DNA of 21,426 nt, from the IMG/VR virus record IMGVR_UViG_3300003409_000290, positions 8,479 to 29,904 of that record, one strand, 5' to 3'. Numbering within the stretch: the stretch's first letter is position 1; the number at the start of each line of letters is the position of its first letter. The stretch comes from a virus. Positions 513 to 20,106 of the stretch are shown here, piece after piece. Below the pieces are notes generated by a model. The model saw nothing but the letters and a program-made list of their open reading frames with translations. It ran no database searches and was not told where the DNA came from. The translations under genes and the position numbers were made by a program.

Positions 513-926
513 ATGAGTGATACAAAAACAGTTCAGATGAAAAAAGCAAGAGAGATTGAAAAGCGTATCTATAAAGATAAGCTTACTGATTATAAAATAA
601 AACTAAAGATGTATCAGGATGATCCACGCAATAAAGTAGATAATCCAAGCGGCGTTTCAGGCATGAAAGATAGATCGCCAAAAAAACCAGTGTCGTTAGT
701 TGGTAATTATGAAAAAAGCTTAAATTATATAGACAAATATAGCAATATGTCTAAAGAAGAAAGAAGTAAACCATCTAATAAAAATCAGTATCAAGAAGCT
801 AAAAATTACGTTGCTTTTATAGCAAAACAAACATCTCATAAAAACATGAATAGAAATAATCGTTCCTTAATGAAAAATGCTCGTGTTGAAAAAGATGGTG
901 TTGATCTTTACGCGGATGAACGATAA
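513..926 (+). CDS. Lysine-rich basic protein of unknown function
   Basis: A 137-residue protein very rich in Lys, Arg, Asn and Ser, without a hydrophobic segment or a motif that I recognise. It begins four bases after the portal stop and ends in a TAATG overlap with the next gene, so it is part of the head operon and probably translated with it. The strong positive charge would suit binding to DNA or to the acidic scaffold, but that is inference. Base composition here (runs of A, few GC codons) is more AT-rich than the following gene, which hints at a different history. Function unknown. Confidence 0.7.
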   Translation: MSDTKTVQMKKAREIEKRIYKDKLTDYKIKLKMYQDDPRNKVDNPSGVSGMKDRSPKKPVSLVGNYEKSLNYIDKYSNMSKEERSKPSNKNQYQEAKNYVAFIAKQTSHKNMNRNNRSLMKNARVEKDGVDLYADER

Positions 927-1189
927 TGGCTGGATGGGAAGATTTACAAGAAGCATTACCTTTAGAACAAGGTGATGGTCTAGAGAAGCGAGACGAGTTA
1001 GATCGTCTTTGTCTACGTGTCCTAGGGGGTGAGGACGGGGAAAAACTAATGAAATGGCTGCGTGATGCAGTCGTTGAGCAACCCGTTGCTTTGCCGGGTA
1101 GCGATCCAAGCTACGCGTTTTACCGTGAAGGACAAAACAGTATAGTAAAGGACTTAGAAGCAAGGCTAATTAGAGCAAGGAAATTATAA
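926..1189 (+). CDS. Bbp19-like small head-module protein
   Basis: An 87-residue protein. The pattern 'LRVLGGEDGEKLMKWLRD' followed by 'YAFYREGQNSIVKDLEARL' resembles the short Bbp19-type phage proteins (family first named in Bordetella phage BPP-1), which have an N-terminal (F/L)xxxxxxxxGxxxLxxL stretch and a C-terminal (R)EGQRSxVxxI helix. These are usually found between portal and scaffold genes; their exact role is not established. The gene is linked by TAATG overlaps to both neighbours. Local GC content (about 1015-1110) is visibly higher than in the preceding gene. The assignment rests on pattern memory and should be treated as moderate. Confidence 0.65.
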   Translation: MAGWEDLQEALPLEQGDGLEKRDELDRLCLRVLGGEDGEKLMKWLRDAVVEQPVALPGSDPSYAFYREGQNSIVKDLEARLIRARKL

Positions 1190-2007
1190 TGGAAGAAACA
1201 CTCGAGCCTAGTGTGGAAACGCAAGAAGAAAGCACTGGCCTACTCGATGGAGCAACACCAACAATCGATGAAGCTAGTACTGAAGATCCACAGAAAGTAG
1301 CAGTAGATCACAGAGATCCTGAGGAACTCAAAGCACAAGAAGAGTTTGCAGTTAATGAAGCAGAAGATGATGAACCGTTAGAGCGACCAGACTGGTGGCC
1401 AGAAAACTTCTGGAAGTCAGATGACGATGCACCGGATCTTGAAGGTATTGCTAAGTCATGGATGGATTTACGCAAACAAATCTCACAAGGTAAACATAAA
1501 GCACCAGCTGATGGTAACTATGACTTAGCTGCATTTGGTGAAATTCCAGAAGATGATCCATTACGTAGTCATGTAGTTGGTTGGGCAGCGCAGTATGGCG
1601 TAAGTCAAGCTGCATTAGATGATCTTGTTGGCGAGGTTGTGCAAAACAACATGCTGGCAGCAGAAACACAACAAGTAAATCTTGAAGAAGAACGTAAATC
1701 TTTAGGTCCTAATGCTGATGCTAGAATCAATGGTATGGTGAAATGGGCATCTAGTTTAGTACAAAAAGGTGTCTGGGGTGAAGATGATTTTGAAGAGTTC
1801 AAGGTAATGGGTGGTACTGCAAAAGGTATCGCTGCTTTAGAAAAACTCAGAGCCTCGTATGAAGGTCGTGTACCTGTAGAAGCAACTCCAGTAGAAGGCG
1901 CACCATCAAAAGAAGAGCTATATCAAATGGTAGCGGATCCTAGATACAATACAGATCCATCCTACCGTCAAAAAGTAGAAAGAGCATTCGCTCAAAACTT
2001 CGGTTAA
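1189..2007 (+). CDS. Capsid assembly scaffolding protein
   Basis: A 272-residue acidic protein. Residues 1-65 are dominated by Glu/Asp/Thr/Pro. Around 65-75 lies ERPDWWPENFW, matching the (R)PEW(L)PEKFW-type motif seen in T7-like capsid assembly proteins; it is followed by a K-rich patch (KQISQGKHK, about 96-104) and a YDL/P segment. The last ~30 residues (LYQMVADPRYNTDP, then a basic helix ending AFAQNFG) match the usual scaffold C-terminus, which in this class contacts the coat protein. The protein would act as a temporary internal core during procapsid assembly and leave before DNA packaging. Its position directly before the capsid gene supports this. It starts in a TAATG overlap with the upstream gene. 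Confidence 0.85.
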   Translation: MEETLEPSVETQEESTGLLDGATPTIDEASTEDPQKVAVDHRDPEELKAQEEFAVNEAEDDEPLERPDWWPENFWKSDDDAPDLEGIAKSWMDLRKQISQGKHKAPADGNYDLAAFGEIPEDDPLRSHVVGWAAQYGVSQAALDDLVGEVVQNNMLAAETQQVNLEEERKSLGPNADARINGMVKWASSLVQKGVWGEDDFEEFKVMGGTAKGIAALEKLRASYEGRVPVEATPVEGAPSKEELYQMVADPRYNTDPSYRQKVERAFAQNFG

Positions 2008-2011
2008 ACGC

Positions 2012-2041
2012 TTGACAATAGGCTTTGTTCCCATGTACAAT
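2012..2041 (+). promoter_or_regulatory. Candidate sigma70-type promoter ahead of the capsid gene
   Basis: A perfect TTGACA (2012-2017) is separated by 18 bases from TACAAT (2036-2041, five of six matches to TATAAT). It lies just after the scaffold stop codon and 150 bases before the capsid ATG, where high capsid expression would need a promoter. The -10 box falls in the loop of a long inverted repeat (2017-2058), so the same bases may have a second role. Confidence 0.55.
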
Positions 2042-2058
2042 CGGGAATGAGGCCTATT
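2017..2058 (+). other. Long hairpin (16-bp stem, 10-base loop) in the capsid leader
   Basis: Left arm 2017-2032 (AATAGGCTTTGTTCCC) pairs with right arm 2043-2058 (GGGAATGAGGCCTATT) without a gap, using 13 Watson-Crick and 3 G-U pairs, around loop ATGTACAATC. No T-run follows, so it is not a typical intrinsic terminator. It could be an RNase III-type processing site in read-through transcripts, a stabilising 5' structure for downstream RNA, or an operator over the promoter. Which of these applies is not visible from sequence. Confidence 0.6.
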
Positions 2059-2191
2059 ACATATTCTTGTAACCCTTAAACGCAAGTAAGCTTGTCGACT
2101 GGCTATCGTAAATAGCAAGCACGGCCCAGATTTCTCTGGCATACCACAGCGATTAATACACAATTTTATTAATTACTATAAGGAGTCAATA
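2059..2191 (+). promoter_or_regulatory. Structured 5' leader of the capsid gene
   Basis: The rest of the 184-base non-coding gap holds two smaller hairpins, GCTAT/ATAGC with loop CGTAA (about 2102-2116) and CCAGA/TCTGG with loop TTTC (2126-2139). It ends in a very AT-rich stretch before a strong Shine-Dalgarno AAGGAG (2180-2185), six bases from the ATG. An unpaired AT-rich approach to a near-consensus ribosome site fits very high translation of the coat protein. Confidence 0.5.
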
Positions 2192-3034
2192 ATGGCTATT
2201 GGTTTATCTAATGCTTTTGTTACCTTATTTGATGCCGAAGTTAAACAGGCTTATCAAGCTAAAGCAGAGCTTGTTGGTGCAGTTAGACAAAGACGTGGCG
2301 TTGAAGGTTCAACAGCAAAATTCCCTAAAGTGGGTAAAGGCGTGGCTACATTACGTGTACCACAAACAGACGTAACACCATTAAATGTGGATTTTTCACA
2401 AGTTACAGCAACAATGCAAGACTGGAATGCTGCAGAGTATTCTGACATCTTCATGCAACAAAAAGTTAACTTTGACGAAAGACAAGAATTAGTACAAGTA
2501 GTTGCTAATGCTATCGGTCGTCGTCAAGATCAGTTAATTATTGATGCATTAGAAGGTTCTGGTACTTCATTGACTGTTGCTAATGACATCGGTGGTACAG
2601 ACACAAACTTAAACGTAGCAAAATTACGTGAAGCTAAAAAACTATTAGACAAAGGTAACGTTCCTCCACAGGATCGTCACGTTGTTTTACATGCTAATAA
2701 CTTAGCTGCACTATTAGGCGAAACAGAAGTAACATCTACTGACTTCAACACTGTTAAAGCTTTAGTATCTGGTGAAATCAATACATACCTAGGTTTCACA
2801 TTCCATGTACTAGGCGATAGAACTGAAGGCGGCTTAACTGTTGATGGTTCTGATGATAGAACTGTATTGGCATTCCATAAAGATGCTCTCGGTTATGCTG
2901 AAGGCATGGGTCCTAAAACTGAAATCAACTACGTACCAGAAAAAACTTCATTCTTAGTGAATGCTATGTTCTCTGCTGGTGCTGTAGCGATTGACGCTGA
3001 AGGTATTGTTAACCTCACATGTCGTGAATCATAA
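2192..3034 (+). CDS. Major capsid protein
   Basis: A 280-residue protein that forms the capsid shell. It resembles the short phage capsid proteins of marine podoviruses (Phage_capsid_2-like, presumed HK97-type fold). The N-terminus is MAIGLSNAFVTLFDAEVKQAYQ, followed by a 'KFPKVGKG' strand region, 'NFDERQELVQVVANAIGRRQDQLIIDAL' as the long spine-type helix (about 115-142), and 'RHVVLHANNLAALLG' mid-protein. Length is shorter than T7 gp10 (about 345) but normal for this group. It lies directly after scaffold, leader and promoter and has the best ribosome site in the window (AAGGAG, spacing 6). Codon use is regular and repetitive, as expected for a highly expressed gene. Family fold is from recognition, not computed. 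Confidence 0.88.
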   Translation: MAIGLSNAFVTLFDAEVKQAYQAKAELVGAVRQRRGVEGSTAKFPKVGKGVATLRVPQTDVTPLNVDFSQVTATMQDWNAAEYSDIFMQQKVNFDERQELVQVVANAIGRRQDQLIIDALEGSGTSLTVANDIGGTDTNLNVAKLREAKKLLDKGNVPPQDRHVVLHANNLAALLGETEVTSTDFNTVKALVSGEINTYLGFTFHVLGDRTEGGLTVDGSDDRTVLAFHKDALGYAEGMGPKTEINYVPEKTSFLVNAMFSAGAVAIDAEGIVNLTCRES

Positions 3035-3045
3035 GGAGATAAATA

Positions 3046-3327
3046 ATGGCTTATTCTAAAGACAATTTACAACCTATTGGTGGTCAGTCTAAAGCTGGTA
3101 ACGCTCCTCAAATGTGGAGCTACACAGCACCTGGCACTGACGCACTTGCTGATATGAATACATCAGGTTACTTTAATGATGCATCATCAGTATTAAAAGT
3201 AGGCGATCTAGTATACTTATGGGACGCATCTGTTCCTACAGCATCACTAGCAGTCGTACTTTCTAATGCTGCTGGCGTTGTTGATGTATCTGACGGTACA
3301 GCAATTGCAGTTACAGACGCTGACTAA
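3046..3327 (+). CDS. Probable capsid decoration or head-stabilising protein
   Basis: A 93-residue protein rich in Ala, Ser, Asp and Val, with short beta-prone segments (VLKVGDLVYLWD, ASLAVVLSNAAGVVDVSDG). It starts 11 bases after the capsid stop with a good AAGGAG ribosome site and is followed by a terminator, so capsid and this gene form a two-gene transcript unit. Small beta-rich proteins in this slot are often decoration proteins on the shell. No specific family is recognised; the role is inferred from location, size and composition. Confidence 0.65.
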   Translation: MAYSKDNLQPIGGQSKAGNAPQMWSYTAPGTDALADMNTSGYFNDASSVLKVGDLVYLWDASVPTASLAVVLSNAAGVVDVSDGTAIAVTDAD

Positions 3328-3345
3328 GTTGTTTAATGCAGATTG

Positions 3346-3370
3346 GGTAGGTACTCCGGTGCCTACCTAT
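3346..3370 (+). terminator. Hairpin terminator after the capsid unit
   Basis: GGTAGGTAC (3346-3354) pairs with GTGCCTACC (3359-3367), a nine-pair stem with one G-U, around the tetraloop TCCG. A short T-rich tail (TATTTG) follows. Its location matches the T7 terminator that follows gene 10. The weak T-run suggests partial termination, so the tail genes would be transcribed at a lower level by read-through. Confidence 0.7.
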
Positions 3371-3392
3371 TTGCACATTTAAAGGAAACAAA

Positions 3393-4007
3393 ATGGCTAC
3401 AGGTGATACCGATATTAAAATATGTTCCGATGCATTACTAATGCTTGGGGCCAATCCAATATCATCATTTACTGAAGGTACAGATGAATCTAACATTTGT
3501 GATCGACTCTATCCAGATATTAAGATTCGTACACTTACAATGTATGACTGGTCATTTTCATTCAAGAAAACACAATTAGGTCGATTAGTTACAATACCGA
3601 CCAATGAATACAAATACGAATATCAACTACCATCTGACATTATCGGCAGACCGAACGCCGTCTATGATGTTGCTGAGGTAGGCGCTTATCCTCGTAGAGA
3701 ATACAGACTCATGGGTGATAAGTTATTAACAGATTATGAAGAAGTATATATTGATTATCAATACAATGTTCCTGAGTTTGCATTGCCACATTACTTTGTG
3801 CAGTTACTTAAATATGAAATGGCTTGGCATCTAGCACTACCAATTACTGATCAGGCAGATAAGTCAGAGTACTGGAGAACAATTTCTGAAGGTACGCCAG
3901 GAGAGAATGGTCGTGGTGGCTACATGAGACAAGCAATGAACATAGATAGTCAAGGCAACCCAACAAATGCAATACAAGATTTCTCATTAATTAATGTGAG
4001 GTACTAA
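3393..4007 (+). CDS. Tail tubular protein A (T7 gp11-like adaptor)
   Basis: A 204-residue protein. The opening 'TDIKICSDALLMLGANPISSFTEGTDESNICDRLYP' is the typical start of gp11-like proteins and related head-completion proteins: a helical bundle in which a 'LLxLGxxPI' motif precedes an 'A(N)xCxxxYP' motif. 'YEYQLPSDI' (about 66-74), 'YRLMGDKLLTDYEEVYIDYQY' and 'LPHYFVQLLKYEMAWHLALPIT' follow in the family order. Twelve copies form the ring between portal and nozzle. The length matches T7 gp11 (196). Start supported by AAAGGAAAC upstream. It overlaps the next gene by TAATG. Confidence 0.88.
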   Translation: MATGDTDIKICSDALLMLGANPISSFTEGTDESNICDRLYPDIKIRTLTMYDWSFSFKKTQLGRLVTIPTNEYKYEYQLPSDIIGRPNAVYDVAEVGAYPRREYRLMGDKLLTDYEEVYIDYQYNVPEFALPHYFVQLLKYEMAWHLALPITDQADKSEYWRTISEGTPGENGRGGYMRQAMNIDSQGNPTNAIQDFSLINVRY

Positions 4008-5977
4008 TGGCTAGGTTTGTTGATATACAAACTAATTTTACAAGTGGTGAGCTTGATCCTCTTGTGCGTTCACGTATTGATCTTGATGCATATAAAAATG
4101 GTTTAGAATCAGCACAAAATGTTGTATGTCAGCCACAAGGTGGTGTGCATAGAAGATCAGGCACTCGATTCCTAACAGAACTTGGTGGCAGTCCAGAGAA
4201 TGGTGTACGTCTTGTACACTTTGAATTTTCAGTTAATGACAGTTACATGTTGGCTTTTACCAACAATCGCATGTACATCTTCAAAGATAAAGTATTACAA
4301 ACAAACATCAATGGTCCCGGGAACGATTACCTTACAACCACAATTGCTAGTGCTAGATTAGATGCAATGTGTTTTACTCAGTCAGCAGACACGTTGATTG
4401 TTGTCGAAGAAGATATGGTACCAAAAAGAATTACCAGGACAAGTGATACGGCTTGGACTATATCTGACATTACATTTGATTCTACACCACAGCATGCATA
4501 CACATTAAGCACCGAAAATACATCAGCAGCTGGTACGCTTACACCAAGTGATGTGTCAGGCAAGATCACGTTGACTTCACAACATAGTATCTTTGATTCT
4601 TCTCATGAAGGTCAATACATTAATGCAGAGCCTCAAGGTCGAGCTAGGATTGTTGAAGTAGTCAGTCCATCTGTAGTCAATGCAGTAACAGAGTTTCCAT
4701 TCTTTGATACAGTGGCTATTGATAATGCAGACTGGGAACTTGAAGAAGGTTATGAAGATGTATGGTCTGTGTCTAAAGGATGGCCCAGAACAGTTACATT
4801 TCACCAAGGACGTTTATTCTTTGGTGGTAGTAAATCAAGACCATCCACCATCTGGGGATCTAAAGTAGGTTTATTTTTTGACTTTAAGCCAGTCGAGGGA
4901 TTAGATGATGATGCTGTAGAAGCCACTCTAGATACCAATACATTCAATGCTATTGTAGACATGATCTCTAGTCGTGACTTACAAATCTTTACATCAGGCG
5001 GTGAGTTTGCTGTTATTCAAGAAGGATTAACACCAATTACACCGACGAGTTTCTTTTTATCCACAACATCACGTAATGGTACCAAGGAAGGTGTACGAGT
5101 TAAACAGCTAGAATCTGGTGTGTTATTTATACAAAGACAAGGTAAGCAATTAGCTGAGATTGCATATTCTGATACATTCTTAACTTATGTTACATCTAAA
5201 ATTTCATTACTCTCTGGTCACTTACTCAAAGGCCCAAAGCGTATGGACTTACGTCGTGCAGTGAATACGGATGAAAACGATTTACTATTTATAGTCAATG
5301 AAGATGACGGCACGATGGCTGTGTTTTCATTACTACGATCACAGAATGTTATTGCTGCATCAGAGTTTACTACACTAGGTAGTTATTTAGATGTAGGTGT
5401 TGATATTACAGATATATACACAATTGTTAAACGGAGCGACAATAGTGTAGATAAGTATTATGTTGAGGTGTTTGAGGAAGATCGATTAACTGACAGTGCA
5501 GTCATTGGTGAAGCAGTCTCTAGTGTAGATGCGTCGCATATCGACGGGGCTACAGTCAATGTGCTGTCAGATGGATTAGTGGAGGAAGATCAAACAGCTG
5601 ATAGTGCAGTCACGTTTACTAACACACCAACTACATCATGCGAAGTTGGACTACCAATTACAGTAGAAGTAAAAACCATGCCGATTGATTTAAGGGTCGT
5701 TGGTGGTACACGTATTGGGTTTAGAAAACGTATTGTTGAAGTAAATGCTTTATTGTATGAAACACAGAACATTGTAATAAACAACAATCTTGTGCCAATC
5801 CGTACGTTAGGATCTGGTGCATTAGATAGTGAGGTACCAACCTTTACTGGAACAAAAGTACTACATGGTATACTAGGATATAGCAATGAAGGTCAGATTA
5901 CAGTAACACAATCTGCACCGTTAAAACTGACATTGCTTGGTTTGGAATATAAAATAGCAACACATCAAGGAACATAA
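4007..5977 (+). CDS. Tail tubular protein B (T7 gp12-like nozzle)
   Basis: A 656-residue, beta-rich protein. The N-terminus (TNFTSGELDPLVRSRIDLDAY, then GLESAQNVVCQPQGGVHRRSGTRFL) is the conserved start of podovirus tail nozzle proteins. Mid-protein 'WPRTVTFHQGRLFFGGSK' (about 265-280) and 'TIWGSKVGLFFDF' are further family landmarks belonging to the propeller region. The hexameric nozzle closes the tail and opens for DNA release. The length is between cyanophage and T7 (794) forms. It begins by overlap with tail tube A and is separated by two bases from the next gene, so the tail proteins are made in order. Confidence 0.9.
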   Translation: MARFVDIQTNFTSGELDPLVRSRIDLDAYKNGLESAQNVVCQPQGGVHRRSGTRFLTELGGSPENGVRLVHFEFSVNDSYMLAFTNNRMYIFKDKVLQTNINGPGNDYLTTTIASARLDAMCFTQSADTLIVVEEDMVPKRITRTSDTAWTISDITFDSTPQHAYTLSTENTSAAGTLTPSDVSGKITLTSQHSIFDSSHEGQYINAEPQGRARIVEVVSPSVVNAVTEFPFFDTVAIDNADWELEEGYEDVWSVSKGWPRTVTFHQGRLFFGGSKSRPSTIWGSKVGLFFDFKPVEGLDDDAVEATLDTNTFNAIVDMISSRDLQIFTSGGEFAVIQEGLTPITPTSFFLSTTSRNGTKEGVRVKQLESGVLFIQRQGKQLAEIAYSDTFLTYVTSKISLLSGHLLKGPKRMDLRRAVNTDENDLLFIVNEDDGTMAVFSLLRSQNVIAASEFTTLGSYLDVGVDITDIYTIVKRSDNSVDKYYVEVFEEDRLTDSAVIGEAVSSVDASHIDGATVNVLSDGLVEEDQTADSAVTFTNTPTTSCEVGLPITVEVKTMPIDLRVVGGTRIGFRKRIVEVNALLYETQNIVINNNLVPIRTLGSGALDSEVPTFTGTKVLHGILGYSNEGQITVTQSAPLKLTLLGLEYKIATHQGT

Positions 5978-5979
5978 TT

Positions 5980-6639
5980 ATGGGAACCGCAGTAGCATTT
6001 AAGGGCGCAACAATGGTTGGCATGAAAGGAGCTGCAGCTACAGCTGGAACTTCTTTATTCAGTGCAGCTGCTGTATCAGCACCTATCGCTAAAGTAGGCG
6101 CATCAATGATGATGAATCCAGCAATTATGACTCCAGGTGGTGGAGGATTATTAGCTGGTGCTGGCACAGTCTTGGATGCAATGAATAAGTATTCTGGCTT
6201 AATATCTACAGGATTTTCTGGATTACAAGCTGTAGGTGCTTACAATCGTGGTCAGTTCATGGAACAACAATATGAAATCCAAGCAGAACAAATGCGAGCC
6301 GATCAAGAAATTAATAGACTTAACTTATTGCGTGCAGCTAATGACAAGACACGTAATTTACTAGCAGTCAATGCAAGTGCATTAGCCGCTGGTTTTGCTA
6401 ATGGGGTAAATGGCTTTGATGGTTCAGTGAAGTTGGTGACGCAGAAAAATGAAGAACGTTACTTACGTGACATTAGTGCATTAGAGTTTAACTCTAAATC
6501 GTCAGAGTTATTTCAAGATGCTCAGTCATCAATGCTTGCTGCTGCCGGTGAAGAAGCTGTGCGTGGTTCTAGGTTTGATGCTTTGTATCATATTGGTAAT
6601 GCTTATAAAATTTATAATGACACAAGGGTTCCAACATAA
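5980..6639 (+). CDS. Internal virion protein, gp14-like
   Basis: A 219-residue protein, similar in length to T7 gp14 (196). Residues 1-75 are rich in Ala, Gly and Met with hydrophobic stretches (FKGATMVGMKGAAATAG, SAAAVSAPIAKVGASMMM); residues 80-140 are helical and charged (QQYEIQAEQMRADQEINRLNLLRAAND). That layout, a hydrophobic N-terminus followed by coiled helix, is typical of the ejected protein that builds the outer-membrane part of the DNA conduit. Order after the nozzle gene and before a ~800-residue protein equals T7 gp14-gp15. Assignment is by composition, size and synteny rather than by a strict motif. Ends in a TAATG overlap with the next gene. Confidence 0.75.
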   Translation: MGTAVAFKGATMVGMKGAAATAGTSLFSAAAVSAPIAKVGASMMMNPAIMTPGGGGLLAGAGTVLDAMNKYSGLISTGFSGLQAVGAYNRGQFMEQQYEIQAEQMRADQEINRLNLLRAANDKTRNLLAVNASALAAGFANGVNGFDGSVKLVTQKNEERYLRDISALEFNSKSSELFQDAQSSMLAAAGEEAVRGSRFDALYHIGNAYKIYNDTRVPT

Positions 6640-12901: not shown

Positions 12902-15094
12902 ATGGCAATCGATATATCAAGCACAACTAGACGTATAGTGTACACTGGCTCAGCCGGTGTAGGCCCGTACGCATTTAACTTTGAGGTCTTAGCTCAGACT
13001 GACATCGCTGCATACTTTAATGATACAGAGCTAACGCTTACAACAGACTTTACTGTATCTATCGATCCTGATGGGACAGGTTCAGTTACGATTGTCACTG
13101 GCACCAATGTTCCTACTACACCAGATGCTGATGATCGTATCACCATTGTTGGTGCAAGAGATATTGAGCGTACAACAGACTTCACAACTGGTGGCCCTCT
13201 ATTTGCTACATCATTAAACGATGAATTCGACAGCTTAACCATATTTACACAACAAAACAAAGAAGAAGCTGACCGCTCAATCAAAGCACCAGTGACTGAT
13301 CCATCTTCTATTAATATGACACTACCTAAAGATGATGATCGTAAAGGCAAGTATCTATCATTCAATGCTACTACTGGTAATCCTGAAGTTGTTAATGCAG
13401 TCGTAGACATTAATACTATTGCTGGTATTGCAAGTGATGTAACTACAGTATCAGGTATCGCATCTAATGTGACATCAGTTGCTGGCAATGCAACAAACAT
13501 AAATACTGTTGCAACCAATATATCTAATGTAAACACTACAGCATCAAGCATCTCTAATGTGAATACTGTTTCAGCTAGTATCAGTAATGTAAATGCTGTT
13601 GCAGGCAATGCAACGAATATTAACACTGTTGCTGGTATTAGTACCGATGTTACAGCAGTTGCTGCAATTGATACAGCAGTTTCAGCAGTCAACGCTAATT
13701 CTGCAAACATTAATACTGTATCTACAAATATAGCTAATGTTAATACTTTAGGACCAATAAGTTCAGACATTACGACAGTAGCAGGAATATCAGGTTATGT
13801 GACTACTGTTGCAACAGATTCAACTAATATTAGTACAGTAGCAACAGACATAGCTGATGTTAATTTGGTTGCTGGTAACATTGCTAATGTAATTACTGTG
13901 GCAAGTGCTAACACAGACATCAACACTATAGCAACAAATCTAGGTGGTGCAGATACCATCGGTACAGTAGCAACAAACATCTCTAATGTTAATTCAGTTG
14001 GTAGTAACATTGCGAATGTAAATACTGTGGCTGGTAATTCGACTAACATTACAACTGTAGCAAATAATGAAACCAACATTAACACAGTAGCAACTAATGT
14101 GACAGACGTAGTGACATTTGCTGAAACATATCTTGGTGCATTTGCGTCTGCTCCAACTACAACTACAACTGGTGCATTGTATTACAACACAACATTATCA
14201 CAGTTATATATCTGGAATGGATCTGCATGGGATCAAGCCGCATTCTCAATCACAGGTACAGTGACATCATTCAACACCAGAACAGGTGCAATTACATTAT
14301 CAGCTACTGATGTTAACAATGCACTAGGTTCTGATGCCGTACTTGACTCAGACATTGGCGTAACAGTACAAGCATACGATGCAGACATTGCTAAGTATGA
14401 TGATGCGACTGCAAACTTCCAAGGCAATCTAGTTGTTGATGGTGACTTAACAATTAATGGTACAACAACTACTATCTCTGCTACTGAGTTAGCAATTGAA
14501 GATAACTTGATTTATCTTAATGATGGATCAACTGTTACTAATCCTGACTTAGGCTGGGTAGGTAACTACAATGATGGAACCTATGCACATGCTGGTATCT
14601 TCCGTGATGCAACAGATGGTACATTTAAATTCTTTGATAGTTATACACCTGAGCCTGGATCAGCAATTGATACAGCTCATGGATCATTTGCATTAGCTGA
14701 CGTATCTGCCGCATCATTTACTGGCAATCTAACTGGAGATGTGACTGGTAACGCAGATACAGCAGATGCATTATCAACAGCGAGAACAATCGGTGGTGTA
14801 TCGTTTGACGGCTCTGCTAACATTAATCTTCCTGGTGTTAATACTACAGGTAATCAAAACACTACAGGCACAGCATCAAACATTACCGCATACACAATCA
14901 ACCAAAACTTAGGTACAACTAGCTCACCTACATTTGCTACAGTCAATGCAACTACTGTTGACCTAGGTAACTGGACAGTAACAGAATCAGGTGGAATATT
15001 ATACTTTGCTACTAGCGGAACTAATAAAATGAAGCTAGACGCAAGTGGCAACTTAACAGTTACTGGTGACGTAACAGCTTATGGAACTATATAA
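12902..15094 (+). CDS. Tail fibre, T7 gp17-type N-terminus with Asn-rich quasi-heptad shaft
   Basis: A 730-residue protein. Residues 1-135 (RRIVYTGSAGVGPYAFNFEV, 'DFTVSIDPDGTGSVTI', 'LNDEFDSLTIFTQQNKEEADRSI') match the phage T7 tail fibre N-terminal domain that docks on the tail. Residues about 169-404 are quasi-repeats such as NINTVATNISNVNTVAGN, with Ile/Val spaced 3 and 4 apart and Asn/Thr between, consistent with a trimeric coiled-coil shaft. The C-terminal part has 'GDLTINGTTTTISATELAIE' and 'GNLTGDVTGNADTADALSTA', both common in marine phage fibres. It ends in a short strand-rich tail without a pyramid tip like T7's, suggesting that the distal adhesin is the next gene, which overlaps by TAATG. 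Start supported by AGAGGA six bases upstream. Confidence 0.88.
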   Translation: MAIDISSTTRRIVYTGSAGVGPYAFNFEVLAQTDIAAYFNDTELTLTTDFTVSIDPDGTGSVTIVTGTNVPTTPDADDRITIVGARDIERTTDFTTGGPLFATSLNDEFDSLTIFTQQNKEEADRSIKAPVTDPSSINMTLPKDDDRKGKYLSFNATTGNPEVVNAVVDINTIAGIASDVTTVSGIASNVTSVAGNATNINTVATNISNVNTTASSISNVNTVSASISNVNAVAGNATNINTVAGISTDVTAVAAIDTAVSAVNANSANINTVSTNIANVNTLGPISSDITTVAGISGYVTTVATDSTNISTVATDIADVNLVAGNIANVITVASANTDINTIATNLGGADTIGTVATNISNVNSVGSNIANVNTVAGNSTNITTVANNETNINTVATNVTDVVTFAETYLGAFASAPTTTTTGALYYNTTLSQLYIWNGSAWDQAAFSITGTVTSFNTRTGAITLSATDVNNALGSDAVLDSDIGVTVQAYDADIAKYDDATANFQGNLVVDGDLTINGTTTTISATELAIEDNLIYLNDGSTVTNPDLGWVGNYNDGTYAHAGIFRDATDGTFKFFDSYTPEPGSAIDTAHGSFALADVSAASFTGNLTGDVTGNADTADALSTARTIGGVSFDGSANINLPGVNTTGNQNTTGTASNITAYTINQNLGTTSSPTFATVNATTVDLGNWTVTESGGILYFATSGTNKMKLDASGNLTVTGDVTAYGTI

Positions 15095-16089
15095 TGTCAA
15101 TAAAAGAATCAGGTGATTTAGGTATACAAAATGATATAGTTGCTGAATTTGGCGGCACAGCTCCACATCAAATGACCGAGTATTATCGTGGTGGAGCTTT
15201 AGTTGATAATGTCACAAATAATGCAGCTATTAGTACTAGCGGTGAAATATCTATTGGTGATTTTTATGGTGCTGGTAACGTAGTAGCTATTAATTTAACC
15301 ATTGCATCTAACACTAATAACTATAATGTATATACAGCAGCATCTTCCAATCCTGCTTATGTAGCAGGAGCATCTCAAATAAATGTTACTGTTAATCCAG
15401 GTGTAACTGTTGGATCGACATCCACAGGAACTTATGCAATGCAAGTGCCATCTGCATTTAATCCAGCTGATCAAGTAAATATTACTAACAATGGAGTCAT
15501 TGTTGGTAAAGGGGGTAATGGAGGAAAAGGTGGCGGTAATAATCCATTTCCTGCTGCTGGAGCTGTAGGTGCGGCTGCTGGACATGGGTTATATATTAAT
15601 AGACCTGTAACAATTACAAACAACGGCACCTTGGCAGGTGGCGGTGGAGGTGGTGGTGGTTCAGGGTATGGCGCTCTTCAAGAAGGCCTTACCCCTAAAT
15701 CTGGCCCGAGTTTTGTTGGCTGCGGTGGACAAGGTGGCGGTGGTGGTGCTGGTGTGACTACATCCTCTGGAGGTGCTAGAGGAGGAACTTTTGAGAGACC
15801 TGGCAATGCTGGTGCTGGCGGAACAGCAACTACTGGCGGGGCAGGAGGAGCAAGAAATACTGCAACACCTAATCAGACAGCAACACCAACCAGCTATACA
15901 GGGAAGGGCGGTAATGGTGGAGCAAGAGGATCCAATGGAGTGGCGAGTGAAGCAATCTTTGGTATCTATGATGCAAGTAACTCTCAAGTTCCTGGTTCTA
16001 AAGCTGGCGGAACTCGCGGTAGATACATCACTGGAAATTCATTTGCAACATGGGCAACCAATGGCACACGATTAGGTGCATCAAGTTAA
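15094..16089 (+). CDS. Glycine-rich fibre-tip adhesin candidate
   Basis: A 331-residue protein. The N-terminus (residues 1-62) contains 'SGEISIGDFYGAGN', the '(S)xIxxxDFYG' motif found in many phage fibre and baseplate-associated proteins. A beta-rich region (65-130) is followed by five glycine-dense blocks: about 138-148 (GKGGNGGKGGG), 182-189 (eight Gly in a row), 210-220, 240-253 and 270-279. They are separated by variable Ser/Thr/Pro/Asn-rich stretches. This alternation is what polyglycine-II sandwich adhesins, such as gp38 of T-even phage S16, look like: Gly blocks build the core and the variable stretches form receptor-binding loops. Translational overlap with the fibre gene supports a partner role. 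The similarity is in architecture; homology is not shown. Confidence 0.72.
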   Translation: MSIKESGDLGIQNDIVAEFGGTAPHQMTEYYRGGALVDNVTNNAAISTSGEISIGDFYGAGNVVAINLTIASNTNNYNVYTAASSNPAYVAGASQINVTVNPGVTVGSTSTGTYAMQVPSAFNPADQVNITNNGVIVGKGGNGGKGGGNNPFPAAGAVGAAAGHGLYINRPVTITNNGTLAGGGGGGGGSGYGALQEGLTPKSGPSFVGCGGQGGGGGAGVTTSSGGARGGTFERPGNAGAGGTATTGGAGGARNTATPNQTATPTSYTGKGGNGGARGSNGVASEAIFGIYDASNSQVPGSKAGGTRGRYITGNSFATWATNGTRLGASS

Positions 16090-16102
16090 TTAAGAGGATA
16101 TT

Positions 16103-16474
16103 ATGAATAAGATTAAATATAAGATTAAAGATTATGATCAACAAAGTAATTCAGTAATTATTGCTTTCTGTTCTGATGAAACAAAAACAAATAACCCAGA
16201 TGATTATCCTGCTTTTGCTTTTCAACCAATAGAGCAATACCCTGATGTTACAGATATTGAATTGTTAAAAAAGAAGATTGCACAACAAGGAATTTCTTTA
16301 GCAGAACAAGCTAAGATCGCAGAGCATGCTCACTCAAATGTTGAAATGCAAGAGAAATGGAAAGCATTGGTTGGTCAAACGTTTGAATATAATGTTAGTG
16401 ATGTGTTGAATATAGACTCAGACACAGAGGTACATTACGCTAATGAAGTAGTTGTTCCTCCTGTCGCAGAATAA
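16103..16474 (+). CDS. Unknown protein after the adhesin, possible fibre chaperone
   Basis: A 123-residue acidic protein beginning 14 bases after the adhesin stop with AGAGGA as ribosome site. The N-terminal half (residues 1-55) is strand-prone ('KIKDYDQQSNSVIIAFCSDE', 'YPAFAFQPIEQYPDVTD'). Residues 55-95 form a helix with many Gln, Ala and Lys (ELLKKKIAQQGISLAEQAKI). Small proteins in this place are often fibre assembly chaperones, but I do not recognise a chaperone family motif. Function is unknown; role suggested only by position. Confidence 0.65.
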   Translation: MNKIKYKIKDYDQQSNSVIIAFCSDETKTNNPDDYPAFAFQPIEQYPDVTDIELLKKKIAQQGISLAEQAKIAEHAHSNVEMQEKWKALVGQTFEYNVSDVLNIDSDTEVHYANEVVVPPVAE

Positions 16475-16484
16475 GGAATAATAA

Positions 16485-16958
16485 ATGAAAGTAATGAATG
16501 TAATCAAATGTAGAAATTTTGCAATATGCTGTGGTCATGCTACTGCTAATGACTCTATTGTACATCCAAATACATTAGACAAAAACACACAAATGCAATT
16601 CTATCTTGCACAAGGATACGTCAATGTATCGAATGGTGTCAAAGATTATGACTTACCATTAAGAGAATGGTTTGATCTTAGTGAGTTTAAAAATGATAGT
16701 AAATTAACTTACACTACTAATGAGCAAGGCTGTGCATGGGTTTTGATATTACCTGAAAATAATACAGATGAATACACAGTAACTGCAATCAATGATGGCA
16801 CAGTTCAAGCTACGCCTAACTCATTTTTGTTAGTGACTGATGGTGAAAAAGTAAAAGCAAATGGTTTAAAATTAAAGCACTTAAACTACGTACCTTTAGA
16901 TAAAGATGTTGTGATAGAATTAAATGGTGGAAGTGTACATAAATTTACTGTTAAATGA
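16485..16958 (+). CDS. Unknown beta-rich protein beside the oxygenase cluster
   Basis: A 157-residue protein. The second half alternates short strands and turns ('CAWVLILPENN', 'YTVTAINDGTVQATPNSFLLV', 'KLKHLNYVPLDKDVVIELNG'), a pattern compatible with a small beta-barrel such as a cupin, but no metal-binding His/Glu motif is clear. The N-terminus holds Cys9, Cys15, Cys16 and His18, which could be incidental. Its stop overlaps the start of the first oxygenase gene (ATGA), so the two are co-translated. It may be a partner or substrate of the enzymes that follow; that is inference. Confidence 0.62.
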   Translation: MKVMNVIKCRNFAICCGHATANDSIVHPNTLDKNTQMQFYLAQGYVNVSNGVKDYDLPLREWFDLSEFKNDSKLTYTTNEQGCAWVLILPENNTDEYTVTAINDGTVQATPNSFLLVTDGEKVKANGLKLKHLNYVPLDKDVVIELNGGSVHKFTVK

Positions 16959-17515
16959 TAATTAAAAACCTTATACCAAAAGAATTCTGTCAGTTTTTTA
17001 CACATGTATTATTACGTAATGTAGACCTGCAAGATAAAAAGGACGACAATCAAGTGAGTAATTCACTGACGATAATGCAGCATCATATTGTGTTTGAAAC
17101 GTTACATGAAAGATTGTGGCCCAAAATTGAAAGTGTTGCTGGCAGAAAATTGATGCCAACATATGCATATGCAAGATTGTACCAAAATGGTAATGATCTA
17201 GAAAAACATGTTGATAGACCAGCCTGTGAATTAAGTGTGTCTATCCAACTAGGAAGATCTCATCATTACGCATATCCATTTTATTTAGAAGGCACTCGTG
17301 TAGATCTAAATGAAGGTGATGGTGTGATGTACTTAGGATCAAAGCAAGAACATTGGAGAGAAAAATGCAATGGTCCAGATGGATATTATTCTGGACAAGT
17401 ATTCTTACATTTTGTATATGCAGATGGTGAACATACCCAAGAAGTTGGTGATCAAAATAGAAGAGATCTATATTCATATATGAAAAATAGAACTCAACTA
17501 ATGGAGATTAAATAG
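16955..17515 (+). CDS. 2OG-Fe(II) oxygenase (first of three)
   Basis: A 186-residue protein. His85-Val-Asp87 (in DLEKHVDRPACELSVSIQL) gives the HxD iron motif directly before a strand, and His133 (SKQEHWRE) is the probable distal iron ligand, followed by the strand GQVFLHFVY. This spacing and the 'RLYQNGNDLEKHVDR' lead-in match small phage 2OG-Fe(II) oxygenases. The Arg/Lys that binds the 2-oxoglutarate carboxylate is not obvious at the usual place ten residues after the distal His; Arg135 is a candidate. Enzymes of the family hydroxylate proteins, nucleic acids or small molecules using O2 and 2-oxoglutarate; the substrate is not visible here. Starts in an ATGA overlap with the upstream gene. 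Confidence 0.78.
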   Translation: MIIKNLIPKEFCQFFTHVLLRNVDLQDKKDDNQVSNSLTIMQHHIVFETLHERLWPKIESVAGRKLMPTYAYARLYQNGNDLEKHVDRPACELSVSIQLGRSHHYAYPFYLEGTRVDLNEGDGVMYLGSKQEHWREKCNGPDGYYSGQVFLHFVYADGEHTQEVGDQNRRDLYSYMKNRTQLMEIK

Positions 17516-17519
17516 TTGT

Positions 17520-18104
17520 ATGATGTTGTTAAATCCAAGAAATCATTATGGCAAAGAAGATGTTATCTATTGGGAGAATTTTCTTAGTGATGAGGACATT
17601 CATTTCTTAAGACATCATCCATCGTGGATGAATTATCATACAGCAGAAGTTGGTGATGCAGTAGAAGATTATGGTATTAGGCGTACTAATGTTGCATGGG
17701 TAGATTTTTCAGAACAAAACCAACACATTTGGCAGAAGATTGCTAAGGTAGTATCTGATATAAATAGTCAATTTTTTCATATTAACCTCACTGGATTTTA
17801 TGAAGACATGCAGCTATCAGAGTACAGCGCAGCATATCAAGGACATTACAACTGGCACACAGATGCATGTTCCTCTGATAAACAAGTACCAAGAAAATTA
17901 TCTATGGTATTGATGTTATCTGATGCAAATGAATATGAAGGTGGAGAGTTGCAGATTAAAACATCGGATCATGATGAAACATTAGAAATGCAAATGGGCA
18001 GAGCGTGGTTCTTTCCATCCTATATGTTACACAGAGTTACACCTGTAACAAAGGGATTAAGAAAGACTGCGGTATTATGGGTAGGTGGAGAGCCGTGGCG
18101 GTAG
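17520..18104 (+). CDS. 2OG-Fe(II) oxygenase, PKHD/prolyl-hydroxylase type (second of three)
   Basis: A 194-residue protein with all the expected catalytic residues: His113-Thr-Asp115 (GHYNWHTDACSS), His171 (FPSYMLHRVTPV) and Arg181 ten residues later for the 2-oxoglutarate carboxylate. 'RKLSMVLMLSDANEYEGGEL' between them is the standard double-stranded beta-helix segment of prolyl-4-hydroxylase-like (PKHD-type) enzymes common in marine phages. Of the three, this has the most complete motif set and is likely active. The substrate cannot be read from the sequence; a virion protein or a host target are both possible. It begins four bases after the first oxygenase gene; ATG at 17520 or 17523 may be used, with GGAG at 17503 rather far away. 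Confidence 0.87.
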   Translation: MMLLNPRNHYGKEDVIYWENFLSDEDIHFLRHHPSWMNYHTAEVGDAVEDYGIRRTNVAWVDFSEQNQHIWQKIAKVVSDINSQFFHINLTGFYEDMQLSEYSAAYQGHYNWHTDACSSDKQVPRKLSMVLMLSDANEYEGGELQIKTSDHDETLEMQMGRAWFFPSYMLHRVTPVTKGLRKTAVLWVGGEPWR

Positions 18105-18107
18105 TGT

Positions 18108-18614
18108 ATGGTAAACATTTATCAAACATCCATTAAGTTTGAAGATAATTTAGATGTTATTAAGCATGAACTAATTAAAGACTATATGAGTGATGCGGTG
18201 CAGTTGAATAGAGTCAAAGGAAAGTACAACTTTTGGTTATCAAATAAATACAAACCATTTACAGATATTTTATACAATGAGTTTGTTAAAGAAGCAAGAA
18301 AATGTTATGACTTTGTACTCAGTGATGACAATGAACAAAATGTGTGGGCATATATTAGCAATAATCAATACTATAATTTATGTATACACAACCACAAGCA
18401 TACAGCAGATATTAATGCAGTGTGGTATTTGCATGTACCAGACACAACGGGTGGTGAGCTAACATTTTATGATGTGGATAAAAATAAGATTGGTGAAATT
18501 AAACCTAAGACCAATGACTTATTGATGTTTGATGGGGATTTAAATCATGTTGCACTTCCTCCAGATAGTGAGGATTTTAGGATTGGATTAAATATGGAGA
18601 TTAGAACAAAATGA
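18108..18614 (+). CDS. Putative 2OG-Fe(II) oxygenase, variant motif (third of three)
   Basis: A 168-residue protein. 'YYNLCIHNHKHTADINAVWYLHVP' (about 88-111) resembles the 'HNHPxSxxSGVYYL' stretch of the 2OG-FeII_Oxy_5 (TIGR02466-like) family. His94 and His96 lie at the first iron site, and Asp101 may be the acidic ligand. 'GGELTFYD' follows, then 'LLMFDGDLNHVALPP' with distal His147 and, 11 residues later, Arg158 (FRIGLNMEI), which fits 2-oxoglutarate binding. The lack of a plain HxD makes the activity less certain. It is four bases downstream of the second oxygenase and overlaps the next small gene by ATGA. Family membership is likely; function unknown. Confidence 0.7.
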   Translation: MVNIYQTSIKFEDNLDVIKHELIKDYMSDAVQLNRVKGKYNFWLSNKYKPFTDILYNEFVKEARKCYDFVLSDDNEQNVWAYISNNQYYNLCIHNHKHTADINAVWYLHVPDTTGGELTFYDVDKNKIGEIKPKTNDLLMFDGDLNHVALPPDSEDFRIGLNMEIRTK

Positions 18615-18778
18615 CACCAGACGAGAAGCTACATTCACACGAGAAGCTATGTGCTGAACGATATGCTACCATACATAAACGCCTTGATCGATTAGAGTTT
18701 ATGTTACAACGATTAATCATGGGCTGCATGGCTGGATTCGGTGCCATTGTTGTGGCCGTCATTGTCAACAAACTATAA
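18611..18778 (+). CDS. Small membrane protein, holin-like
   Basis: A 55-residue protein: MTPDEKLHSHEKLCAERYAT, then a charged helix (IHKRLDRLEFMLQRL), then one C-terminal membrane segment (about 36-52, IMGCMAGFGAIVVAVIV) ending NKL. The ATG overlaps the stop of the third oxygenase (ATGA), with GGAGA ten bases upstream. Charged N-terminal helix plus a single TM is the layout of many small class II/III holins or holin partners, and the gene lies at the head of the lysis cassette. It could equally be an antiholin or another pore component. No exact family is claimed. Confidence 0.65.
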   Translation: MTPDEKLHSHEKLCAERYATIHKRLDRLEFMLQRLIMGCMAGFGAIVVAVIVNKL

Positions 18779-19347: not shown

Positions 19348-19784
19348 GATTATCTGAACACTTTACCTTGGAAGAAATGACCAGGAGCCAAATGGCTAAG
19401 CGTCATGGTATTGATAACACTCCAAATGATATGCAATTGGAGAACCTAAAAACATTAGCGAAAGGGATGGAACTTGTTAGGACTAAGCTTGATAGTTTGC
19501 CTATTACTGTTAGTAGTGGCTTTAGGTGTGAGGCTCTCAATGATTTGCTCGGATCTAAAAGAACAAGCCAGCATATTAGAGGTCTTGCTGCTGATTGGAC
19601 TTGTGATCGTTATGCTGATGTTGATCGCGTATTTGAAGTTATCGCTGAATCATCTATTCCTTTTGATCAGCTGATTTTAGAATATGATTCCTGGATCCAC
19701 ATCTCATTCCCACCTGAAGGTGAAGAACTTCGTAGACAAGTATTGGTAATCGATCGTGAAGGCGCAAGGATTTATAACCCGTAG
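19344..19784 (+). CDS. Endolysin, peptidase M15 (D-Ala-type peptidoglycan peptidase)
   Basis: A 146-residue protein starting with GTG that overlaps the holin stop. 'LSEHFTLEEMTRSQMAKRHGIDNTP' is the usual start of M15-type phage endolysins. 'SSGFRC' (57-62) precedes 'SQHIRGLAADW', giving His77 and Asp84, and 'SWIHISF' gives His119: the three zinc ligands of the M15_3 family. It cleaves peptide cross-links of peptidoglycan in the periplasm. No signal peptide or membrane anchor is present, so it depends on the holin. The length is normal for the family, and the neighbouring holin fully supports the role. Confidence 0.92.
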   Translation: MRLSEHFTLEEMTRSQMAKRHGIDNTPNDMQLENLKTLAKGMELVRTKLDSLPITVSSGFRCEALNDLLGSKRTSQHIRGLAADWTCDRYADVDRVFEVIAESSIPFDQLILEYDSWIHISFPPEGEELRRQVLVIDREGARIYNP

Positions 19785-20106
19785 TTTCATTGAACATCTT
19801 TACAATACATTCCGTATTCATAAGCCATTCCAGGACTTTCCTGATAGCATTGATGTTGAGTTTGAAGTTGTCTACCATCATGATTGCATCGGAGAGTATA
19901 CGCCTGAACCGCACCGCATACTGGTATCAACCAAGTATTGTAAGACACTCGAAGCTGTTATCTATACAGTCCTCCATGAAATGATCCACATGAGAATGTA
20001 CCTGGACAACCCTAAGTCCGAAGAGTACGTTGAACATAACAAAAAGTTTGATGCCTACAACACCCAAGTGTGTGCTATGTACTTCCTTGATCCACAAGAG
20101 TTATAG
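19756..20106 (+). CDS. SprT-like zinc metalloprotein
   Basis: A 116-residue protein. 'VIYTVLHEMIHMRMY' gives His74-Glu75-x-x-His78 (HExxH) and 'YVEHNKKFDAY' gives the third ligand His94, the pattern of the SprT/Spartan-like zinc-peptidase family. Eukaryotic Spartan cleaves DNA-protein crosslinks; the role of phage versions is unsettled. The start is taken as GTG 19756, 29 bases inside the endolysin gene, because no in-frame ATG lies near; the true start could be later, since the first ~12 residues are not conserved. Placed in the lysis cassette, it may aid lysis or act on host protein complexes; that is inference. Confidence 0.75.
   Translation: MKAQGFITRSFIEHLYNTFRIHKPFQDFPDSIDVEFEVVYHHDCIGEYTPEPHRILVSTKYCKTLEAVIYTVLHEMIHMRMYLDNPKSEEYVEHNKKFDAYNTQVCAMYFLDPQEL

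Follow-up and report, generated by a model that had tools for sequence, protein, structure and literature searches.

An apparently mobile phage host-recognition cassette with a built-in set of predicted 2OG/Fe(II) oxygenases

Introduction

Few kinds of extra gene are as common in marine phages as those for 2OG oxygenases, whose substrates are for the most part unassigned. For pelagiphages, the available text of Wittmers 2022 (PMC9599517) describes a 'ferrochelatase' gene that always adjoins a 2OG oxygenase gene, and excerpts of a second study (PMC11561400) report that PHROG 2954 and 61 are enriched in seasonal viruses. By the PHROG 2954 name, these pelagiphage partner genes belong to the same family as the first oxygenase of our locus (P1), and they too lie beside other 2OG oxygenases. 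In the available portions of both papers, the P1-type protein is read as a ferrochelatase of haem and iron metabolism, and a link to an adhesin cassette is not drawn. In metaviromic islands (PMC3909814, accessible text), Fe(II)-dependent oxygenases and the Gp38 adhesin are listed together as host-recognition genes of the hypervariable islands of marine phages, but the anatomy, the partners, and a mechanism are not given in that text. Further, the T4-like cyanophage S-SCSM1, which infects Synechococcus, has 24 2OG genes that are interpreted in the accessible text as host reprogramming (PMC9602691), and phage 2OG proteins similar in fold to human EGLN3 are described in excerpts of another report (PMC12774648). 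As far as their accessible text goes, earlier papers had thus already drawn attention to clusters of 2OG genes and to the presence of oxygenases within host-recognition islands, while in the accessible part of the open-licence literature searched we found no proposal of adhesin hydroxylation.

The module of the T-even phages, in which the gp37 fibre tip and the Gly-rich Gp38 adhesin form a unit, resembles our locus in that respect. To our knowledge, the classical gp37/Gp38 module has no oxygenases.

Results and discussion

Gene row of the window

The window, i.e., the whole stretch of DNA that was analysed, covers 21.4 kb of an IMG/VR virus record that is 32.3 kb long. Methylophilales phage MEP301 was its sole megablast relative among phage isolates (73% over 914-5986). 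The genes of concern are these:

12902..15094, + strand: tail fibre, 730 aa; its C-terminal ~60 residues (about 14906-15091) alone are common to loci L137, L141, and L142
15094..16089, + strand: Gly-rich Gp38-like adhesin, 331 aa, 23% Gly (from PF05268, PHROG, and Gly fraction)
16103..16474, + strand: PA, 123 aa, directly 3' of the adhesin gene
16485..16958, + strand: PB, 157 aa, cassette member without assigned function
16955..17515, + strand: P1, 186 aa, predicted 2OG/Fe(II) oxygenase, PHROG 2954 (H85, D87, H133, R135)
17520..18104, + strand: P2, 194 aa, predicted PKHD-like 2OG/Fe(II) oxygenase (H113, D115, H171, R181)
18108..18614, + strand: P3, 168 aa, predicted PF13759-like oxygenase with an HxH...H site (H94, H96, H147; R158)
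18611..18778, + strand: small protein (MTPDEKL...); the right-hand edge of the sequence common to the cassette relatives is formed by its N-terminal part (18611-18715)

Read from the window, the three oxygenase ORFs have the lengths of 186, 194, and 168 aa and the head-to-tail order that a preliminary description had given them. The PB stop and the P1 start overlap by 4 bases (ATGA), as do P3 and the next gene, 18611 (again ATGA), and the gaps between P1 and P2 and between P2 and P3 are 4 and 3 bases. Farther downstream, an ORF at 19756-20106 that overlaps the end of the endolysin gene has a zinc-protease-like HEMIH motif.

Three dissimilar oxygenases

Profile searches of the whole virus record returned PF13640, a 2OG family, for P2 and P3 only. 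P2 matches it with an E-value of 1.7e-16, and its sequence matches in the PDB are PKHD hydroxylases (E 2e-7 to 2e-9), among which PiuC and Sbal_3634 (PDB IDs: 9GHL, 3DKQ) correspond over the catalytic core only, P2 being shorter. Moreover, His113, Asp115, His171, and Arg181 are invariant in 16 relatives. On these sequence grounds, P2 is assigned as a PKHD-like PF13640 2OG/Fe(II) oxygenase.

P3 passes the cut-off for PF13640 (E 4.3e-8) and falls just below that for PF13759 (E 2.4e-5). Its AlphaFold (AF2) model (pLDDT 85) finds 3BVC and 2RG4 as best folds, both of which the profile search also finds, followed by the P4H/PHD2 prolyl hydroxylases. These two PF13759 proteins share the family, the HxH motif, and the fold of P3, though they are uncharacterised and P3 is only about 17% identical. 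A scan of viral contigs with the single P3 sequence found no relatives, and these were gathered by family alignment instead; among the resulting 34 sequences, His94 and His96 are invariant and His147 nearly so, whereas the positions aligned with Asp101 are not conserved. The metal-site motif proposed earlier (H94, H96, D101/H147) thus keeps its three histidines and loses Asp101, and reads HxH...H. Few 2OG oxygenases have a site of this kind. Here, however, the PF13759-like relatives have HxH...H in place of HxD...H throughout, and by this comparison it appears as a family trait, not as damage.

P1 gave no Pfam match in the profile search, so that the 2OG profile matches looked for in all three proteins were obtained for P2 and P3 alone; some P1 relatives have weak matches to PhyH, 2OG-FeII_Oxy_2, or HalD. 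Instead, P1 matches phrog_2954 (E 3.3e-43). A further family, phrog_3531, matches P1 at one end and P2 at the other, which points to a natural fusion of a P1-like and a P2-like part. When the profiles of P1 and P2 were aligned with hhalign, the match was not significant, and we therefore used the structure to place P1. Its AF2 model (pLDDT 91.1, pTM 0.88) has 305 Foldseek matches in the PDB at E<=0.001, and the top 50 listed are 2OG-type enzymes. The best solved match is the Pseudomonas putida prolyl-4-hydroxylase (PDB IDs: 4J25, 4IW3), also crystallised with EF-Tu and a close match of P3 as well (all with the double-stranded beta-helix, DSBH). With 11-16% identity to P1 and P3, and with EF-Tu as its partner, this enzyme is like the phage proteins in fold only. 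Across the P1 alignment (107 sequences), H85-x-D87...H133 is invariant, as is Arg135 (HxR), and Gln148 is nearly so, while P1 is without an Arg at the usual 2OG-binding site (about 10 residues past the distal His). On its model, then, P1 has the fold of the 2OG/Fe(II) oxygenase superfamily.

Overall, the predicted double-stranded beta-helix folds of P1 and P3 come from models and that of P2 from homology, and the candidate iron sites are conserved. The view of the preliminary description that these are three distinct oxygenases, not recent duplicates, agrees with their dissimilarity, each being of the double-stranded beta-helix 2OG/Fe(II) type; nor do two or more of them lack the beta-helix core or the iron site, and in relatives the genes do occur together. 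Purifying selection acts on both P1 and P2, with dN/dS of about 0.1-0.2 against relatives.

The 'ferrochelatase' label of PHROG 2954

PHROG 2954 is named "ferrochelatase" in databases (PHROGs, RefSeq) and in two papers, from which one could suppose that P1 supplies haem and is partnered with oxygenases via iron metabolism. Against these names, the ferrochelatase profile (PF00762) matches 0 of 107 P1 relatives and nothing in the phage record, although it does detect 8 of the 14 control genomes; the name is hence unsupported. Moreover, P1 has the fold and the invariant HxD...H of a 2OG oxygenase, and at 186 aa it is far below the 317 positions of the profile. We consider a ferrochelatase role practically negligible in probability; PHROG 2954 is very probably a 2OG oxygenase family and its database name wrong, an identification that appears to be new. 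With the corrected identity, published ecology (PMC9599517, PMC11561400) loses its haem and iron-metabolism reading. A similar situation was noticed with PHROG 274 and 2297 ('DNA endonuclease V' and 'DNA endonuclease'): proteins matched by them, e.g., L060:4417-4890 and L011:6965-7504, also score with 2OG oxygenase families, and from these scores the endonuclease label looks wrong too.

A cassette with sharp edges and an exchangeable third gene

For L137, L141, and L142, we matched each listed plus-strand ORF against the window together with two more stretches from the virus record of the window. In all three loci, homology to the window starts within the C-terminal ~60 residues of the fibre, continues through the adhesin, PA, PB, P1, and P2, skips the third slot, and resumes at the start of gene 18611, with L137 additionally sharing the holin. 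The remaining plus-strand ORFs of these loci, which include two large ones (510-605 aa, terminase-/portal-like), have no match to the window record. In L001, a nearer relative, the whole fibre is shared with the window. As for the third slot, it holds P3 in the window, another 2OG gene in L001 and in L137, L138, and L140, and two further 2OG genes in L141 and L142. Thus, P1 and P2 stay together as a pair, whereas close relatives fill the third slot in three different ways. We therefore dropped P1-P2-P3 as a conserved triplet. The earlier idea of a three-gene modification pathway gives way to a fixed unit of P1 and P2 with the adhesin, PA, and PB, since exchange of the third gene between relatives speaks against a conserved three-step pathway.

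The adhesin scores 23.7 bits against PF05268 (Gp38), for which the cut-off is 25, and its PHROG match is to tail fibre/host specificity. Judging from its position, PA is probably an assembly or attachment factor of the adhesin. We used PA as an anchor, which by itself does not select for oxygenases and was first recognised in oxygenase-bearing loci; among the 75 PA loci analysed, a Gly-rich gene lies upstream of PA in 66/74, and where 2.5 kb of downstream sequence is present, at least one 2OG gene follows in 51/63 and at least two in 48/63 (38/46 and 35/46, respectively, after removal of near-identical PA copies). Five of the 63 are without a recognised 2OG gene even with added families, so the adhesin is not always in need of one. 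Adhesins that have oxygenases contain slightly more Asp, His, and Pro, a difference too small to interpret in loci that are non-independent.

Because of the sharp homology edges amid unrelated flanks, and the 2OG genes in 51/63 PA loci, we read 14906-18614 of the window from sequence comparison as a host-recognition cassette that is mobile and brings its own set of oxygenases. The linkage of oxygenase and host-recognition genes suspected at the outset is borne out in that P1 and P2 move together with the fibre tip and adhesin. An adhesin-PA-PB-P1-P2 cassette with sharp boundaries and an exchangeable third enzyme appears to be new.

The sister phage MEP301 has homologous flanks (the fibre N-terminus and a homologue of gene 18611) with different fibre genes between them. 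No P1-P3 homologue was seen there (three proteins compared with 2OG profiles, the others by annotation), and MEP301 is absent among the tblastn matches listed for P1 and P2. One candidate, MEP301 gp20 ('putative endonuclease'), was rejected as an oxygenase, as a match was obtained with none of the 2OG profiles applied to it; its sequence begins with a short fibre-like part and then resembles a GIY-YIG-type protein.

Neighbourhoods of P1 relatives

The P1 profile search gave at least 599 confirmed stretches in viral contigs, the best 80 of which were kept, and 26 matches in GTDB genomes. A 2OG gene adjoins P1 in 89 of the 115 P1 loci, and 57 have runs of at least three, the longest with 9, counts that describe neighbourhoods and not prevalence, as the 2OG families were built from the same loci and the loci chosen by P1 similarity. 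Strict counts exclude the A6 family (Asp/Asn hydroxylase-like), which Pfam and hhalign left unconfirmed. Across the 80 viral loci, 2OG genes make up 49% of the genes at the first position from P1, 37% at the second, 25% at the third, 8% at the fourth, and 1% at the seventh and beyond. The 2OG clustering near P1 is hence more than chance. Multi-oxygenase clusters, with 57/115 P1 loci, are nothing out of the ordinary for phages of marine and fresh waters. Among the 115 P1 loci, 24 P1 proteins exceed 280 aa; in L083, the one long P1 scanned from a viral contig, P1 is followed by a second 2OG domain, while in L130 and L131 the P1 domain is at the C-terminus.

In cyanophages, the settings differ. 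In S-SCSM1 (L216, 1-8675), two groups of 2OG genes, seven genes in all, flank a tail-fibre gene whose annotation is that of a virion protein; the P1-type protein of this phage is found by the tail-fibre genes and its P3 relative between baseplate genes. In P-SSM7, P1 is among replication genes, adjoining a Dam methylase and away from adhesins.

Two bacterial settings were also observed. In Brasilonema sp. CT11 (L107), the P1-family oxygenase at 5821-6492 lies between AMP-binding/PKS-type megasynthase genes (an NRPS/PKS-type cluster), and is probably a natural-product tailoring enzyme. In Pyrinomonadaceae and Acidobacteriota, P1-domain proteins of 411-414 aa (L130:4558-6492, L131:2694-4607) adjoin PqqD-domain proteins that run on into a Tat-like stretch; this pair is possibly a peptide-modification system.

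Lastly, fatty-acid desaturase-like genes are found within the adhesin/oxygenase cassette at L153:8878-9657, L106:5279-5992, and L013:2726-3451. The L153 gene matches PF00487, the L106 gene does so below the cut-off, and the L013 gene has no Pfam match.

Proposed function and alternatives

From the linkage, we infer hydroxylation of the fibre or adhesin. That P1-P3 hydroxylate the fibre tip or adhesin, with the cassette moving as a block and a swap of the third enzyme altering the chemistry, is a proposal to which we give an even chance. In it, the cassette (14906-18614) would pass between phages with its fibre tip, adhesin, PA, PB, P1, P2, and an exchangeable P3, and P1-P3 would be expressed together with the adhesin. 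If the enzymes are active on a protein substrate, the most likely targets of hydroxylation would be fibre-tip or adhesin side chains at the stage of virion assembly; chemical groups would then be added at the receptor-binding surface, possibly with an effect on binding, and a swap of the third enzyme would alter this surface chemistry. The proposal draws on the predicted folds and conserved sites, the co-mobility in L137, L141, and L142 together with the PA-anchored linkage, the other fibre genes of MEP301 where P1-P3 homologues were not found, the virion tail-fibre gene amid seven 2OG genes in S-SCSM1, and the naming of both Fe(II)-dependent oxygenases and Gp38 adhesin as host-recognition genes of marine phage islands (PMC3909814). 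More indirectly, the P4H-like fold, the NRPS/PKS cluster, and the PqqD neighbours point to a peptide or protein substrate. Co-mobility of P1 and P2 with the host-gripping tip suggests chemical modification of the tip. Counting against it are the position of P1 away from adhesins in P-SSM7 and the five PA loci in which a 2OG gene was not recognised.

The same co-mobility would also be expected, and to that extent speaks against the adhesin as substrate, if what the oxygenases alter is the surface of the host to which the adhesin binds (lipid A, LPS, or an outer-membrane protein). They could do so, for instance, to block superinfection by phages that use the same receptor, and would travel with the adhesin on that account. 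A bacterial 2OG enzyme, LpxO, hydroxylates lipid A. The desaturase genes in the L153 and L106 cassettes would fit a lipid substrate, and the TPR/GT2-like gene in L146 is also in keeping with a host-surface target. Yet the enzymes sit in a structural/lysis gene row, and both the fold matches of P1 and P3 and the bacterial P1 contexts favour peptides or proteins, for which reasons we hold modification of the host surface to be unlikely. Nor do we expect, except with rather low probability, that late in infection the enzymes act as auxiliary genes on cytosolic proteins of the host (translation factors, ribosomal proteins) or on metabolism, the adhesin linkage then reflecting no more than an insertion hot spot between fibre and lysis genes. 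This would accord with the closest solved fold of P1, a P4H crystallised with EF-Tu, with P1 in the replication region of a cyanophage, and with the treatment of such genes as auxiliary metabolic genes in the available text of the literature (PMC11561400, PMC9599517, PMC9602691). A hot spot, however, leaves unexplained why P1 and P2 stay with the fibre tip, adhesin, PA, and PB when both flanks are replaced, as well as the adhesin-anchored co-occurrence (51/63).

Altogether, we regard the cassette as real and widespread and hydroxylation of the fibre tip or adhesin as a plausible function. With P1 and P2 inside a mobile fibre-tip/adhesin cassette, these oxygenases gain a concrete, testable candidate substrate. 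More tentatively, and with somewhat less confidence than an even chance, aquatic phages in general may diversify receptor binding by adhesin hydroxylation through travelling, exchangeable oxygenase sets with PHROG 2954 as the hub enzyme. If true, this would add a post-translational layer to host-range variation, and host recognition would depend on the enzymes as well as the adhesin sequence.

Some loci also hold genes for possible further modification. GT2/TPR-like genes adjoin the oxygenases at L146:10004-11062 and L147:9439-10512, and glycosyltransferases and a radical SAM gene adjoin the P1-bearing protein of S-SCSM2R (L021); in such loci, hydroxylation followed by glycosylation is conceivable.
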